Positions 4,168-18,067 of a stretch of DNA of 18,444 nucleotides are shown here, piece after piece. The notes beneath the pieces were generated by a model that made no database searches, was not told where the DNA came from, and saw nothing but the letters and a program-made list of their open reading frames with translations. The position numbers and the translations under genes are program-made. The number at the start of each line of letters is the position of its first letter. Position 1 is the first letter of the stretch. Source of the stretch: Thermoplasmatales archaeon SW_10_69_26 (lineage in GTDB: Archaea > Thermoplasmatota > SW-10-69-26); contig PXUB01000015.1 of the NCBI GenBank assembly GCA_003009755.1, positions 1-18,444 on the forward strand, read 5' to 3'.

Positions 4168-4176
4168 AGGAGGTGA
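4168..4176 (+). promoter_or_regulatory. Near-perfect ribosome binding site before a non-standard kinase start
   Basis: AGGAGGTGA complements the 3' end of archaeal 16S rRNA almost fully. No ATG, GTG or TTG follows it in the kinase frame; the in-frame codons after it are ACA, ACG (4180) and ATC (4183). The TGA at 4174-4176 is the last in-frame stop before the kinase. This site is the main evidence that translation begins about 200 nt before the first ATG at 4378. Confidence 0.6.
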
Positions 4177-4179
4177 ACA

Positions 4180-6258
4180 ACGATCGCACCCCTTCCATTC
4201 CTAGACATCTCCGCCCTCTGGTCGATCGTCAGCGGCATCGCGGTCTTCCTCCTCGGCTGCTACGCGCTCCGAGGCGGGAGGGCGCGGCCACGGGGAGGGC
4301 TCGCGTTCGGGCTCTTCGCCATCGCCTGGGGCGTCCAAGTCACCGCCATCAACGCTGCCTCTATCGTCGAGCCCGCCATGGCCGAGCAGCTCTACCTCGT
4401 CTCCCTCGTGGGGCTCTTCTTCCTCCCCTACTTCCTCATCGAGTTCTCCGCCTCCCAGACGGACCGGAGGGGAAGGACGACGGGATGGTACCTGCTCAGA
4501 GGTGGCGCGGCCCTCGTCGCGTTCGTCTCGGCGGGGACCCTCGTGCTGGCCCCCGATCTCCTCTTCCAGGGCATCAACCTGGCCAACGGAACCGTATACC
4601 CCCTCTGGGGCCCTCTCTTCGCCCCGCTCATCAACCTCCCCTTGTTCACCGCCTTCGGGCTCGCGGTCATCGGCCTCCAGTCCGGGTTGAGCTCCTCGCC
4701 GACCGAACGGACCGAGAGGGTTCAACTCTACATGCTGGGGGGCTTGGCCCTCTACGTCGCCTACACCGCCTCGTACAACCTCCTCCTGTTCTCTAACCTG
4801 ACGCTCTCGCTTGGGCTCTCATTCGAGCGGGTGCTGTACGTCCTCATCTTCGCCTTCCTTTCCGCCCTCGTCCTCGCGGTCGGTTGGAAGAACCTTCGTC
4901 GATGGGGGAAGGGCGATGGCCACGGTCAGCGGCAGGCGCGATGGTTGGCTCTCGCCTTCCTGGTGCCCTTCGCCAGCGCCATCCTCGTTCGGGGTGTGCG
5001 AGCCTTGGGCGCCGTCGGCTTCAACCTCGTCGGCGTCTTCCGTTTGGCCGGCGTCGGCGTCATCACGTACGGCTTCGCCCGTCGCCGCCTGTACGACCTT
5101 CCGCAGCGCGTTCGGCGGACGGGCGCCACCGCGACCGGCTCGGTCAGCGCCCTGGCGGCCGGCGGCACCGCGTTCGGGTTCGCCAGCGTCCTCTCCGGCG
5201 GCCTCGCCTTGCCGATCCTGGCGGGCGTGGCCGCGACGGGCGCGACGGCGATGCCGGCGCTGAAGTGGGCCCGTCGGCTGTTCTCGGCCGGGGACGAGGA
5301 CAACCCGGTCGACGAGGCCGAGGACCTGTACGAGCAGAAGATCGAGACCTACCGCGCCGCGCTCGAGGACGCGATGGCGCGGGACACGATCGAGGAGGAC
5401 GAGCCGTTCCTGACGGGCCTGCGCGAGCGGTTCGGCATCTCCGACGAGGAGGATCGCATCCTGCGCTACTACGCCCGCAAGTCGACCGTTCCGCGCCGGG
5501 AGGGCGACCCGGACACGGCTTACGAGCGGTTGCGGATCCTCGGCGAGGGCGGCGCGGGGCGCACGTGGCTGGCCCGCGACCGTTCGCGCGATCGACTCGC
5601 CGTGGTGAAGGAGCCCTTGGAGAAATGGCACAGCGAACCCTCCGTGCTCGAGGCGGCCCGCCGCGAGGCGCGCTTGGCCGCCAAGGTCCGCCACCCGAAC
5701 GTCGTCGAGGTCGAGGAGGTGCTCGAGGACGAGGGCCGCCCCCTGCTCGTCATGGAGCACGTCACCGGCGGCTCGCTGGCGGACAAGCTTCGCCAGAGGG
5801 GCACGCTGGAGCCCCGCCAGGCGCTGAAGCTTGGCTACGATCTGGCCCAGGGCCTGCAAGCCATCCACGAGGCCGGCATCGTGCACCGCGATCTGACGCC
5901 CGACAACGTCCTGTTGACCGAGGACGGGCGGGCCCGCATCACGGACTTCGGGCTCGCGCGGACCCAGGACAGCTCGGGCACCCAGCTCCTCGAAGACGAG
6001 GCCGGCACGAAGGGCTACCAGGCCCCCGAGGCGGCCCACGGCAGCGACGATCCGACCGTGGACGTGTACGGGTTGGCCGCGATCATGCACACGTGCCTGT
6101 ACGGCAGCCCGCCGGTCCAAGGCACGATCCAGGTCGAGACCGAGGTCCCCCGCGAGCTGCAGGAGGCCATCGACCGCGGCCTGCAACCCGATCCCGACGA
6201 GCGGTACCCGAACGCGGCGACCTTCGCCGACCGGCTGGAGACGCTGGTGGAACGATGA
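4180..6258 (+). CDS. Polytopic membrane sensor fused to Hanks-type Ser/Thr protein kinase
   Basis: Membrane receptor kinase, about 692 residues if translation begins near 4180, or 626 from the first ATG (4378); residue numbers here use that ATG. About nine hydrophobic helices precede residue 234, two of them upstream of the ATG, resembling the 7TM N-terminal region of archaeal histidine kinases. Another hydrophobic stretch lies at 253-297 and a charged helical linker at 311-368. The kinase domain (about 384-626) is complete: glycine loop GEGGAG (389-394), Lys411, helix-C Glu430, HRD (503-505), Asn510, DFG (523-525) and APE (549-551). It should transfer phosphate from ATP to Ser/Thr on the cytoplasmic side. 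Its stop overlaps the start of the winged-helix/FHA gene (ATGA). The start is uncertain: no standard codon follows the ribosome binding site, so ACG 4180, ATC 4183 or a base error are all possible. Confidence 0.9.
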   Translation, partial: TIAPLPFLDISALWSIVSGIAVFLLGCYALRGGRARPRGGLAFGLFAIAWGVQVTAINAASIVEPAMAEQLYLVSLVGLFFLPYFLIEFSASQTDRRGRTTGWYLLRGGAALVAFVSAGTLVLAPDLLFQGINLANGTVYPLWGPLFAPLINLPLFTAFGLAVIGLQSGLSSSPTERTERVQLYMLGGLALYVAYTASYNLLLFSNLTLSLGLSFERVLYVLIFAFLSALVLAVGWKNLRRWGKGDGHGQRQARWLALAFLVPFASAILVRGVRALGAVGFNLVGVFRLAGVGVITYGFARRRLYDLPQRVRRTGATATGSVSALAAGGTAFGFASVLSGGLALPILAGVAATGATAMPALKWARRLFSAGDEDNPVDEAEDLYEQKIETYRAALEDAMARDTIEEDEPFLTGLRERFGISDEEDRILRYYARKSTVPRREGDPDTAYERLRILGEGGAGRTWLARDRSRDRLAVVKEPLEKWHSEPSVLEAARREARLAAKVRHPNVVEVEEVLEDEGRPLLVMEHVTGGSLADKLRQRGTLEPRQALKLGYDLAQGLQAIHEAGIVHRDLTPDNVLLTEDGRARITDFGLARTQDSSGTQLLEDEAGTKGYQAPEAAHGSDDPTVDVYGLAAIMHTCLYGSPPVQGTIQVETEVPRELQEAIDRGLQPDPDERYPNAATFADRLETLVER

Positions 6259-6965
6259 CCGAGGTGCAACGAGAGGAGGACGACGACCTGCAGGAGCTCT
6301 CCGAGGTCCTCTTCGCGCTCGCGAACGCCCGCCGGCTGCGCATCCTGCACGAGGTCGACGAGCCGGAGACACGCACCGAGCTGGCCGACCGCATGGACGT
6401 CTCCCGGCAGGCGATCAGCAAGCACATCGACAAGCTGCTCGAGCACGGGTTCGTCCGCCAGTTGCCGGGATGGCGGGAGTCCGGCCCGGTGGACGAGTTC
6501 CAGGTCGATCCCAAGCGCCTGTACGCCATCGGCAAGGAGATCGCCGACCTCGGCCACCTCGAACCGAAGGGGGGCCCCGAGCTAACCGACGCCCAGGCCA
6601 CGGAGATCCGCGCCGACAGCATCGATGACGACAGCCCGACCTCGAAGGGCAGCTCGGCCCAAGCCCACCTGCTGGTGCTGGACGGGCCCGAGGAGGGCGA
6701 CCGCTTCGTGCTCGCGGGCGAGCAGGATCGCTGGACGATCGGCCGCGAGGAGGATCGGGATCTGTGCCTGGACCACGACCCATACATCTCCGGCAGCCAG
6801 TTCGAGATCCAGGCCACGCCGGACGGTCACGCGGTCGTCGACGTCTACAGCTCCAACGGTACCTACGTGAACTTCGGCCAGCTCCCGGAAGGGGGGCGCA
6901 CGGCCCTCGAGCCCGGGGACGTGGTCCGCATCGGGCGCACCTCGCTCGTCTACCAGCGGCGCTGA
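6255..6965 (+). CDS. Winged-helix DNA-binding protein with C-terminal FHA domain
   Basis: A 236-residue cytoplasmic regulator. Residues 14-95 form an ArsR-like winged helix (ALANARRLRIL, then the recognition-helix pattern DVSRQAISKHIDKLLEHGFV). A polar acidic linker with several Ser and Thr (about 105-134) leads to an FHA domain at about 138-235, with the phosphate-contacting Gly163-Arg164, Ser179 and the SNGTYVN turn (Asn201-Gly202). FHA domains bind phosphothreonine peptides. The usual His of the S-x-x-H motif is Gln here (ISGSQ). The ATG overlaps the kinase stop by ATGA, so the two are translationally coupled. A natural reading is that the kinase phosphorylates itself or this protein and FHA binding changes DNA binding; this is inference. 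It ends 27 nt from the convergent purB. Confidence 0.93.
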   Translation: MTEVQREEDDDLQELSEVLFALANARRLRILHEVDEPETRTELADRMDVSRQAISKHIDKLLEHGFVRQLPGWRESGPVDEFQVDPKRLYAIGKEIADLGHLEPKGGPELTDAQATEIRADSIDDDSPTSKGSSAQAHLLVLDGPEEGDRFVLAGEQDRWTIGREEDRDLCLDHDPYISGSQFEIQATPDGHAVVDVYSSNGTYVNFGQLPEGGRTALEPGDVVRIGRTSLVYQRR

Positions 6966-8840: not shown

Positions 8841-9890
8841 TTGGGTCAAGCGCTCACGCTGCTGTTCGCCGTGCTGTTGTTGGGGGGTGCCCCCGTCGCC
8901 GACGAGACCGGCGCCGACGACGAGCCGATGGTCCCCACGGAGACCGACGCCTCCGTCGTCGAGACCGAGAGCAACGCGAGCCCGACGCAGGGCCACGGTA
9001 GCCTCGCGGCGGGCGAGGCCGACACCGCCGATCCCAACGCCACGGCCACCGCCAACGGTTCCACGTCAGGTGAGCACCTCAGCGCGGAGGCCGACGCGGT
9101 CGAGGGCGACGTGGAGGTGACCGCTTCACCGATCGAGGGGACGGTCCGCGTGTCCGATCGACGCGTCGTCGAGATGACATACACGCCCCCGAGCGCCGAA
9201 GAGGCCATGCCCGAGGTCCCCCAAACGGCCCCCGACGACGAGAACGTGGAAGAGACCGACGCCGAGGCCGCCTCCACGGAGGACGAGCAGGCCGGCTCCA
9301 GCGAGGCCGTCTGGGCGCTGGCCCCCGCGACCGGCTTGGCCGCAGCCGCCGCCGTCACGCAGACGACGCCCGTCGGCCGCTGGCTGCGCCGCGTGCTCTC
9401 CACCGCGCCGCTGGCGCCGCTGTACTCGCGGATCTCCAGCGACGAGGTGCTCGACCACGAGACGCGGGAAGCGATCTACGAGCTGCTCGAGAGGGAGGCT
9501 GGGCTCAGTCTCGAGGCGATCGCGGACGAGCTGGATCTGGCGCGCTCGACGGCCCGCCACCACGTCCGCAAGCTCGAGGAGACCGGCATGATCGAGCACG
9601 CTCGCATCGGTCGGGCCCGCGTCCACCACGTGGTCGGCGAGCGCAAGCGCGCCCTGCACAGCCACCTGTTGGCGAACGAGACGCGGGCCGAGGTGTTCGA
9701 GGCGATCGAGGATCGCCCGCTCACGATCACCGAGATCGCGGAGGCGATCGACGCCAACCCCGGCTCGGTGCACTTCCACCTCGACAAGCTCGCGGACCGC
9801 AACCTCGTCCAGACCACCGACGAGGAAGGCCGCCGGTACCTGGCGACGGACCTGGCCGCGGCGCCCGACGCCGTCGTCGACCCGGCGTGA
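8841..9890 (+). CDS. Membrane-anchored regulator with two winged-helix domains
   Basis: A 349-residue protein with an unusual order. A hydrophobic signal or anchor (4-20) is followed by an extracytoplasmic acidic region rich in Glu, Asp, Thr and Ala (21-155) with sequons at Asn45, Asn66 and Asn72 and a short beta-like part around 90-115. A second hydrophobic segment (about 156-173) is followed by a basic stretch (RWLRRV), which places the rest in the cytoplasm. Two tandem winged helices follow: about 203-268 (SLEAIADELDLARSTARHHVRKLEETGMI) and 275-337 (TITEIAEAIDANPGSVHFHLDKLADRNLV). It therefore resembles the one-component membrane-bound wHTH regulators seen in archaea. The signal sensed and the target genes are unknown. 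It stands alone, with its own promoter and a hairpin 12 nt after the stop. The topology is inferred by eye. Confidence 0.88.
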   Translation: MGQALTLLFAVLLLGGAPVADETGADDEPMVPTETDASVVETESNASPTQGHGSLAAGEADTADPNATATANGSTSGEHLSAEADAVEGDVEVTASPIEGTVRVSDRRVVEMTYTPPSAEEAMPEVPQTAPDDENVEETDAEAASTEDEQAGSSEAVWALAPATGLAAAAAVTQTTPVGRWLRRVLSTAPLAPLYSRISSDEVLDHETREAIYELLEREAGLSLEAIADELDLARSTARHHVRKLEETGMIEHARIGRARVHHVVGERKRALHSHLLANETRAEVFEAIEDRPLTITEIAEAIDANPGSVHFHLDKLADRNLVQTTDEEGRRYLATDLAAAPDAVVDPA

Positions 9891-13967: not shown

Positions 13968-14936
13968 CTACACGAGACCGAAGCTGTCGAGCAGCGTCGT
14001 GATCCCGAAGACGAGGAAGACCACCGAGGTGCCGAGCATCCAGAGAGCGCCGTCGATCCGGTGCTCGCGGAGCTCGCCTTCCGAGCCGTCGCTGACGACG
14101 AACGTGCCGGTGCCGTCGTGTTCTCGCATGACGAGATTGCGCTCGTTCCGGGCGTGGTCGGTCCCCTCGCGGCGGTGGGCGGCTCCCCAGACGTAGACGG
14201 GCTCGTCCACGGCGATGACGCTCTCCTCGACGACCCGGTCCCGGTCGGCGGGCTGGGAGAGGTAGGTGGCCAGGTTGTCGTCGATGCCGACCGTGCTCGC
14301 CTGGAAGACCTCCGCGAGGTCCTCCGCCTGGGCCTCCTCGTATCGCGTTCCCTCGCGGAACCCCTCCCGAGCCCAGGCGACGAGCGGCTCGGGCGGTTCC
14401 TCGCCGGCCTCGATCCGTGTCCTCTGCTCGGTGTCCACGACGAGCTTGGCCTCCTGCGGGTCGACCCGCACGGCCCCGGTCCCGTCGTCGATGCGGAGGG
14501 GGACCTCGTCGCGGGTCTGGAGGATTCGGTTGGCACCGCCCTCGTCGCTCTTCGAGATCTCCTTGATCTCGATCTCGTAGAGGACGGCGCTCGTCCCGGT
14601 GAGCGGTGACGTCAGCGGCTCGTCGACGGGCTGGGCCTCCCCGTGGATCTCGGCGGCCCCGACGGCGAGGCTTCGAACGGTGCTCGTCGGCGTGTTCCGG
14701 GCGAGCTGGAACTCGCGGTACTGCCGCCACCCGAAGTAGAAGATCATCGCGCCCAGCGCGATCACGAACAGGACGCCGAGCAGCGGGCTGTCGGGCCCGG
14801 CGCTGACGGGGTTCATGCCCGGCAGGGCGCCCGTGATCACAAGGCTGGCGGCGACGACGAGGACGAGCGCGAGGGCGATCTTGGCTCGCGTCGCCAGCGA
14901 TCCCGACGAGTCGGCGTGCTCGTGCTCAGGCACCAT
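13968..14936 (-). CDS. GIDE-domain membrane protein (second copy)
   Basis: A 322-residue protein with two N-terminal membrane helices (about 19-37 and 50-69), a large soluble domain and a C-terminal helix (about 297-317), the layout of the GIDE/BAM family related to the mitochondrial ligase MULAN/MAPL. The block NTPTSTVRSL followed by EPLTSPLT (81-113), the DDGTGAVRVDP strand pair, VYVWGAAHRR and the VVSDGSE segment are shared with the first copy at 15373-16236. There is no RING finger, so ubiquitin-ligase activity should not be assumed. Its ATG begins one base after the stop of the small lipoprotein gene, so the two are translationally coupled. The soluble domain is longer than in the first copy because of an insertion around 195-230. 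The function in archaea is unknown. Confidence 0.88.
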   Translation of the reverse strand: MVPEHEHADSSGSLATRAKIALALVLVVAASLVITGALPGMNPVSAGPDSPLLGVLFVIALGAMIFYFGWRQYREFQLARNTPTSTVRSLAVGAAEIHGEAQPVDEPLTSPLTGTSAVLYEIEIKEISKSDEGGANRILQTRDEVPLRIDDGTGAVRVDPQEAKLVVDTEQRTRIEAGEEPPEPLVAWAREGFREGTRYEEAQAEDLAEVFQASTVGIDDNLATYLSQPADRDRVVEESVIAVDEPVYVWGAAHRREGTDHARNERNLVMREHDGTGTFVVSDGSEGELREHRIDGALWMLGTSVVFLVFGITTLLDSFGLV

Positions 14937-15372: not shown

Positions 15373-16236
15373 TCACACGATGCCGATCCAGACGAGGCTG
15401 CCGACGATGCCGTAGGGCAGGCAGACGAGCGCGAGGGCGAGGACGACGGCGGCCTCGGCGAGCTGGTCCTCGAGCAGCTCGCCCTCGGATTGGTCGGAGA
15501 CGATGAACGTCTCGGTGCCGCTGTGCTCGCGGACGACCAGGTTGCGCTCGTTCTCGGTCGACGCGGCGTCCTCGCGGCGCTGGGCGCCGCCGAAGACGTA
15601 GGCGGATTCGCCGTCCTCGAGCACGCGCTCCTGCAGCTTGCGGTCGTACCGGGAGGTGGAGGTCAGGTGCCGGCTGTCGATCCCGTGCTGGTTGGCCCAC
15701 TCGCGGACCGGCTTGGGCGGCAGCTCGCCGTCGTCGACGTCGATGCTGGTCTCGCGCTCGATCTCGAGCTGGGCGTCGTCGGGATCGATCCGGACCTTGC
15801 CGGTCCCGTCGTCGAGGCGGAAGGGGACGTGTTCGCTCGTGTAGAACACCGTCTCCCAGTCCGAGTCGTCGTCCCCGTCGGGCCGGTACTCCCTGACGCG
15901 CAGCTGATACATGCAGGCGTCCTGCTGGGTCAGCGGCGAGGTGAGCGGTTCCTCGACCGGGGCGGCCTCACCATTCACCTCGACGGCGCCGACGGGCATG
16001 CTGCGGATCGTGCTGGTCGGCGTGTTGCGGATCAGCTGGGCGTTCTTGAACCGCCCCCAGCCGCCGTAGAGGGCGAACCCGCCGAACACGAGGCCGAAGA
16101 AGGCGATCGCGCCGTGGTTGGTGCCGGCGTCGCGCATCATCGCGGGCAACGGGTACACCAGCGCCAGGGCGACGGCGAAGGCTAGGCCGATCTTCGCGTA
16201 CAGCGTCCAGGGGTAGTCGGTGCCCGCCTCGGCCAT
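15373..16236 (-). CDS. GIDE-domain membrane protein (first copy)
   Basis: A 287-residue membrane protein of the same family as the gene at 13968-14936, with helices near 14-32, 42-60 and 260-285. Shared blocks are NTPTSTIRSM and EPLTSPLT (71-103), DDGTGKVRIDP (142-152), AYVFGGAQRR (212-221), ENERNLVVREH (228-238) and FIVSDQSEGEL (244-254). It lacks a RING finger. The start lies 12 nt after the beta-propeller lipoprotein stop, supporting an operon. Archaeal GIDE proteins are commonly found near LemA, as here. The soluble GIDE domain lies between helices 2 and 3; which side of the membrane it faces is not clear from the sequence. The molecular role is unknown. Confidence 0.88.
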   Translation of the reverse strand: MAEAGTDYPWTLYAKIGLAFAVALALVYPLPAMMRDAGTNHGAIAFFGLVFGGFALYGGWGRFKNAQLIRNTPTSTIRSMPVGAVEVNGEAAPVEEPLTSPLTQQDACMYQLRVREYRPDGDDDSDWETVFYTSEHVPFRLDDGTGKVRIDPDDAQLEIERETSIDVDDGELPPKPVREWANQHGIDSRHLTSTSRYDRKLQERVLEDGESAYVFGGAQRREDAASTENERNLVVREHSGTETFIVSDQSEGELLEDQLAEAAVVLALALVCLPYGIVGSLVWIGIV

Positions 16237-17488: not shown

Positions 17489-18067
17489 TTAGGAACCGAA
17501 AGCGTCGCCGACGTCGACGTCCTGCAGCTCGGACTCGTCGGCTTCGAAGAGGTCGCGAGCCTGGTAGTTCATCAGGCCCGCCACGATGTTGTAGGGGATC
17601 TGGTTGATCCGGATGTTGTAGGTGTTGACGCTCTCGTTGTAGAACTCGCGCCGGTCGGCGATCTGCTCCTCGAGCGCCGAGATCCGTTCCTGGAGCTGCT
17701 GGAAGCTGTCCTGGGCTTTCAGATCCGGGTAGTCCTCGGCGCGGGCGAAGAGGTTGGCCAGGGCCCCCTCGAGCTGGGCGTCGGCGTTGGAGGCCTCGTC
17801 GGGGTTGTCGGCCTGGCGGACCCGTTCGCGGGCCTCGGTGACCTCCTGGAGGACGCGCTCCTCGTAGTCCATGTACTGCTCGACCGTGTCGATGAGCTTG
17901 TCGAGCTCGTCGGCGCGCTGCTTGCGGAGCACGTCGATGTTGCTCCACGCCCGGTCGATGTTGCGGTTCAGCCGGACCAGGCCGTTGTAGACCATCACCG
18001 CGTAGACGACGACCAGCAACCCGACCAGGCCGCCGACGACGGTGAGAGCGATCGTGTGGACGCTCAT
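17489..18067 (-). CDS. lemA: LemA family membrane protein
   Basis: A 192-residue LemA protein: one N-terminal membrane helix (about 6-27), then the signature YNGLVRLNRNIDRAWSNID (27-45) and a long alpha-helical cytoplasmic or peripheral bundle, with the NxYNIRINQIPYNIVAG block near the end. The length is typical. LemA is widespread in bacteria and archaea with a disputed role; it often lies next to GIDE, TPM or DUF3137 genes. A GGAGGT ribosome-binding-like sequence lies 11 nt before the ATG (plus-strand 18079-18084). It is the first gene of the minus-strand envelope cluster. The C-terminus is acidic and lacks a second membrane helix. Confidence 0.93.
   Translation of the reverse strand: MSVHTIALTVVGGLVGLLVVVYAVMVYNGLVRLNRNIDRAWSNIDVLRKQRADELDKLIDTVEQYMDYEERVLQEVTEARERVRQADNPDEASNADAQLEGALANLFARAEDYPDLKAQDSFQQLQERISALEEQIADRREFYNESVNTYNIRINQIPYNIVAGLMNYQARDLFEADESELQDVDVGDAFGS

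Follow-up and report, generated by a model that had tools for sequence, protein, structure and literature searches.

In the window, i.e., the whole 18,444-nucleotide stretch analysed here (contig C13 of a 2.8 Mb source genome assembled in 49 contigs), the gene of a membrane sensor kinase overlaps the gene of a protein that joins a winged helix (wHTH) to a forkhead-associated (FHA) domain. Comparison with related genomes supports, from sequence evidence, that such kinases and wHTH-FHA proteins form a conserved and co-evolving pair. We propose that they act as a dedicated pair, in which the kinase would phosphorylate a threonine in the linker of its partner, the FHA domain would capture this phosphothreonine (pThr), and DNA binding would change; we give this reading a probability of roughly two in three. 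The pair has the appearance of a signalling system dedicated to linking membrane and genes, made from eukaryote-like parts and present in multiple copies in little-known archaea. Its features in the window are the following:

4177..6258, + strand: membrane sensor kinase, about 693 codons (open frame, translation, Pfam Pkinase 9e-44)
about 4180-5300, + strand: N-terminal polytopic region of the kinase
5521-6243, + strand: Hanks-type Ser/Thr kinase domain
6255..6965, + strand: wHTH-FHA regulator, 236 aa (Pfam HTH_20 1e-12, FHA 6e-14; family of 46 members)
6318..6458, + strand: ArsR/MarR-like winged-helix DNA-binding domain, residues 22-68 (HTH_20 1e-12; the family profile matches ArsR-type solved structures)
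6600..6602, + strand: codon of linker Thr116, predicted phospho-acceptor (one alignment column, 39/39 members with an intact FHA triad)
6732..6935, + strand: FHA domain, residues 160-227 (FHA 6e-14; pThr pocket Arg164, Ser179, Asn201)

The window kinase carries the glycine-rich loop, the catalytic Lys, the C-helix Glu and the HRDLTPDN, DFG and APE motifs, which makes it a Hanks-type Ser/Thr kinase, and a simple hydropathy scan finds seven hydrophobic segments 3' of Met4378. The complete kinase with a polytopic membrane part, described in an earlier note made from the sequence, is thus confirmed. The same note placed its start at 4180, but this codon is ACG: the frame is open from 4177, after an in-frame TGA at 4174, down to the TGA at 6256-6258, and its first ATG, GTG or TTG is the ATG at 4378. 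Upstream of Met4378, the kinase has a further conserved hydrophobic N-terminal part, and since the orthologous kinases of L059 and L179, from two other genomes, can be aligned over positions 4177-4378, this segment is coding and the N-terminus is real. Hence, either a non-standard start codon is used after a GGAGGTGA motif, or the assembly holds a base error.

The start of the regulator (ATG, 6255-6257) and the stop of the kinase (TGA, 6256-6258) share an ATGA, as had been noticed, and the regulator does unite a winged helix and an FHA domain in one protein. Its three pocket residues are invariant in the alignment of the five regulators of the source genome (A1). By family profile, the closest solved FHA relatives are OdhI (3e-13) and GarA (3e-12), and EmbR is also among the solved matches (2e-7). 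The curated NCBIfam OdhI model gives only 50 bits for a cut-off of 200, i.e., no full-length match. Neither BTAD nor Trans_reg_C is found among the 25 Pfam matches listed; the regulator, whose wHTH matches HTH_20, ArsR and MarR models, does not show the OmpR-type wHTH and BTA domain that precede the FHA domain in the EmbR (SARP-FHA) family. Among the Pfam matches listed, HisKA, HATPase or receiver domains appear in neither the kinase nor the regulator. A single-sequence AlphaFold model of the regulator was too poor (pLDDT 45) and was set aside.

Several other genes of the window were also annotated. Near the pair, on the + strand, 8841-9890 encodes a protein anchored in the membrane that carries a tandem pair of winged helices (HTH_20, 4.6e-23), possibly a one-component membrane regulator. 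On the − strand, two adjacent membrane proteins (13968-14936 and 15373-16236) match the GIDE (E3 ligase-like) domain at 1.6e-9 and 1.2e-11, and close to them lies a 192-aa membrane protein (17489-18067), which we take to resemble LemA. A tyrosyl-tRNA synthetase is also present, with 54% identity to its best records, Thermoplasmatota being nearest.

The pairing is repeated within the source genome. A Pfam profile search recovered five strong Pkinase matches and five FHA matches; each of the five clear Hanks kinases has a wHTH-FHA gene adjoining it or within about 4 kb, and all five FHA genes encode wHTH-FHA proteins, each on a contig shared with a kinase and all aligning from end to end (A1). 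The arrangements differ, i.e., co-directional and overlapping on C13, divergent on C12, convergent on C19 and C43, and on the same strand about 1 kb apart on C1. The A1 profile also recovered two more divergent members, on C25 and C8, both without a Hanks kinase. On C19 (L014:9616-10407), the convergent kinase frame extends over the FHA gene, and the FHA frame stops abnormally at a G-rich run (GGGGGGRGSP) and lacks the C-terminal motif of the family; because of this abnormal end and missing motif, a frame break or an assembly error is likely there. A search of the source genome for a PP2C_2 phosphatase gave no match.

Full-length members were found in all seven genomes of the class (7/7), and elsewhere in only two of 389 sampled Thermoplasmatota genomes, G076 (five members) and G213 (three). 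The window regulator as sole query found no relative in the collection of genome contigs, the archaeal control genomes gave an FHA match only in Sulfolobus, and a plasmid search for the family returned only matches to the FHA part, in Rhodococcus and Nocardia. According to counts compiled by hand, 34 of the 46 members have a Hanks kinase domain within 5 kb, for 1.05 expected from kinase density. The earlier note had suggested looking for the pair in other archaeal genomes, and it is indeed conserved in related genomes. Since it is kept in co-directional, convergent and divergent arrangements, the pairing is not merely one inherited operon. Moreover, in G076 and G213, which were fetched after the models had been built, all eight members (8/8) are accompanied by a Hanks kinase, in most cases a polytopic one. 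At the L052 locus, the contig breaks off within a gene whose product shares 34% identity over 295 aa with the propeller kinase of C1, so that this member is probably paired with a kinase too.

Of 41 kinase stretches, nearly all retain the Lys, the Glu, the HRD-Asn and the DFG-type residues, and the nearest solved kinases are PknE, PknA and PknB. One kinase (L090:3258-5456) has HGNLRPEH in place of HRDxKPxN and an Ala at the C-helix Glu, which makes it a likely pseudokinase from these residues. Most kinases carry many predicted transmembrane segments, the C1 kinase has a PQQ propeller with a PKD domain, and the L071 kinase a Kelch propeller; this variety recalls the sensor swapping of histidine kinases. 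Some Hanks kinases of the same class had no wHTH-FHA gene found with them (L064:5656-7439, L065:5850-9108, L066:4980-9502 and L082:5883-7936); the regulators near them include a receiver-domain protein, an HTH_10 protein, a TrmB-PAS protein and a tandem wHTH protein.

We compared kinase-domain distances with regulator distances over 24 pairs and obtained a Mantel r of 0.585, a value reached by none of 5000 permutations. When partners were swapped within genomes only, 0/5000 permutations reached it either (mean 0.25, maximum 0.525). Because the correlation survives this within-genome permutation, the partners appear to be one-to-one. The similarity of the activation-loop Thr motif to the linker motif of the partner did not reach significance (p 0.055). 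That the two genes adjoin by inheritance or by chance, with no functional link, would agree with the members that have no Hanks kinase neighbour, but it is largely refuted by the statistics, i.e., 34/46 pairings against about one expected, in all orientations, pair specificity within genomes, and 8/8 in the two later genomes; we hold it to be very improbable. The same distances bear on another explanation, in which the FHA domain would read pThr on a third protein phosphorylated by the neighbouring kinase, the regulator not being a substrate. It has a precedent in Sulfolobales, where ArnC phosphorylates ArnB and the FHA domain of ArnA binds ArnB (PMC12852372). Against it, kinase and partner distances track each other directly, and a qualitative look through the gene lists of the inspected loci showed no third gene recurring beside the pair. 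We judge this third-protein route quite unlikely.

The phosphorylation of the regulator itself is suggested by its linker. In the members whose FHA triad (Arg-Ser-Asn) is intact, one linker Thr falls in a single alignment column in 39/39 cases (27/31 in an earlier alignment, before realignment with eight later members). Shuffled and realigned linkers (100 shuffles) never gave more than 11 Thr in a column, a comparison that overstates the significance of 39/39 because shuffling breaks phylogeny. The linker is otherwise variable, its next-best residue reaching no more than 19/39. This Thr lies 40-48 residues before the pocket Arg (Thr116 in the window protein), within a motif that is roughly [D/E]-[A/P]-T-x-x-[L/A], i.e., D/E at -2, A/P at -1 and a preferred L at +3. 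The family thus has, in a flexible stretch that precedes the FHA domain, a conserved Thr as in the GarA/OdhI type. The earlier note had proposed residues 105-134 as a possible substrate of the kinase, a span which includes T116, and for this predicted phosphorylation the support from conservation is strong. On the FHA side, the triad is kept wherever a member lies next to a kinase and its FHA domain is complete, in line with the pThr-binding FHA domain that had been assumed for the kinase partner; the second basic pocket residue of many FHA domains (the R of SRxH) is not conserved in the family.

The FHA domain could also serve for docking only. It would then bind the autophosphorylated activation loop of the kinase, the regulator being controlled by its location (held at the membrane or released) and the linker Thr being structural. 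An activation-loop Thr before the GTxxY motif is indeed found in 24 of 25 paired kinases, and PknH needs the FHA domain of EmbR in order to phosphorylate this regulator (PMC4601284). However, docking leaves unexplained an invariant Thr in the otherwise variable linker of 39 proteins, as well as the loss of this Thr in five of the six members that have lost the triad. Docking and linker phosphorylation are also compatible, as successive steps. As the whole explanation, we regard docking as unlikely, though less so than the third-protein route.

For none of these six members (on C25 and C8 of the source genome, two on L051, and one each on L056 and L058) does the stretch examined include a Hanks kinase (0/6), and 5/6 have no linker Thr. 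Fisher's p for the joint loss is 1e-4, a statistic that ignores that the six are one clade; because this clade comes from two related genomes, the joint loss of the kinase, the pocket and, in most cases, the Thr is probably one evolutionary event. The clade offers a natural control for the role of the phosphate switch. Five members with an intact triad also lack a Hanks kinase on the stretch examined, one of them adjoining a histidine kinase. In three places, a wHTH-FHA gene without a Hanks kinase lies directly beside a histidine kinase: L050:7892-10789 (C8 of the source genome) and L056:2821-4632, where the triad is lost, and L054:4839-7823, where it is intact. The family may possibly have been rewired to histidine kinases in places.

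The switch that we favour, in which the linker Thr is phosphorylated and captured, can be described step by step. The membrane kinase would sense a signal via its polytopic N-terminus and autophosphorylate its own activation loop. It would then phosphorylate the linker Thr (here Thr116) of the wHTH-FHA protein paired with it, as the conservation suggests. The FHA domain would bind this pThr, whether its own or that of the other subunit of a dimer, and the capture would alter the DNA binding of the winged helix. By duplication and acquisition of different sensors, the module would have given rise to several insulated copies running in parallel in each genome. On a wider scale, these modules could form a lineage-wide archaeal "threonine two-component system", made of many insulated pairs of membrane Hanks kinases and wHTH-FHA proteins, with the linker Thr in the place of the receiver Asp and the FHA domain as readout, one sub-clade having lost the pocket and mostly the Thr, with some members now beside a histidine kinase; we lean only slightly towards this broader view.

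Direct connections between a membrane Ser/Thr kinase and DNA have seldom been described in archaea, and the literature that we found concerns ArnA in Sulfolobales. If our reading is true, the pair represents a kinase-to-DNA module present in several copies, whose candidate phosphosite, Thr116, lends itself to tests by single mutations. Hanks kinases, instead of acting with broad specificity, would then have become dedicated here to one partner each. In the open-access subset of the literature, no described archaeal pair of a wHTH-FHA protein and a Hanks kinase was found. Both the components and the principle are known; in that literature, we found no mention of a repeated and dedicated archaeal module of this make-up whose linker Thr is invariant. 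The statement that this pair is not a described system thus holds for archaea within this scope and not for the general kind, which PknH/EmbR (PMC4601284) and ArnA with ArnC/ArnD already represent.

Compared with known systems, the pair is best read as working like PknH/EmbR combined with the GarA/OdhI switch, an analogy that follows from joining PknH/EmbR regulation to intramolecular capture of pThr by an FHA domain. In Mycobacterium tuberculosis, the pknH and embR genes adjoin each other. PknH is also a transmembrane Hanks-type kinase and EmbR a regulator with an N-terminal winged helix and a C-terminal FHA domain, and phosphorylation of EmbR by PknH, for which the FHA domain of EmbR is required, promotes promoter binding (PMC4601284). 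This association of a wHTH-FHA regulator with a kinase gene is what we observe in 34/46 members. On the other hand, EmbR combines an OmpR-type wHTH with a BTA domain (PMC4601284), whereas the wHTH here is ArsR/HTH_20-like, the linker is short with one conserved Thr, the sensors are polytopic or propellers, and a genome holds several pairs. Some FHA domains are intramolecular inhibitors that bind pThr elsewhere in their own protein (PMC4601284). GarA and OdhI, from Actinobacteria, have the FHA domains closest by profile to our family. Both proteins are phosphorylated on a Thr that precedes the FHA domain, and this same FHA domain then captures it; unlike our regulators, they possess no DNA-binding domain and regulate metabolic enzymes. 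In Sulfolobales, ArnA/ArnB with ArnC/ArnD likewise place an archaeal FHA protein under Hanks-type kinases and affect transcription (PMC10470591, PMC12852372), but ArnA has a zinc-finger domain in place of the wHTH and acts with ArnB, and ArnC has an OB and TPR-like N-terminus unlike the paired kinases here. The pair had been called a replacement for a two-component system, which is too strong because such systems coexist with it in the source genome (20 HATPase and 17 receiver-domain matches). It resembles them by its modular sensors, its dedicated kinase-regulator pairs and its several insulated copies per genome, and differs from them in that a Hanks kinase, a Thr and an FHA domain here take the place of the histidine kinase, the Asp and the receiver domain.
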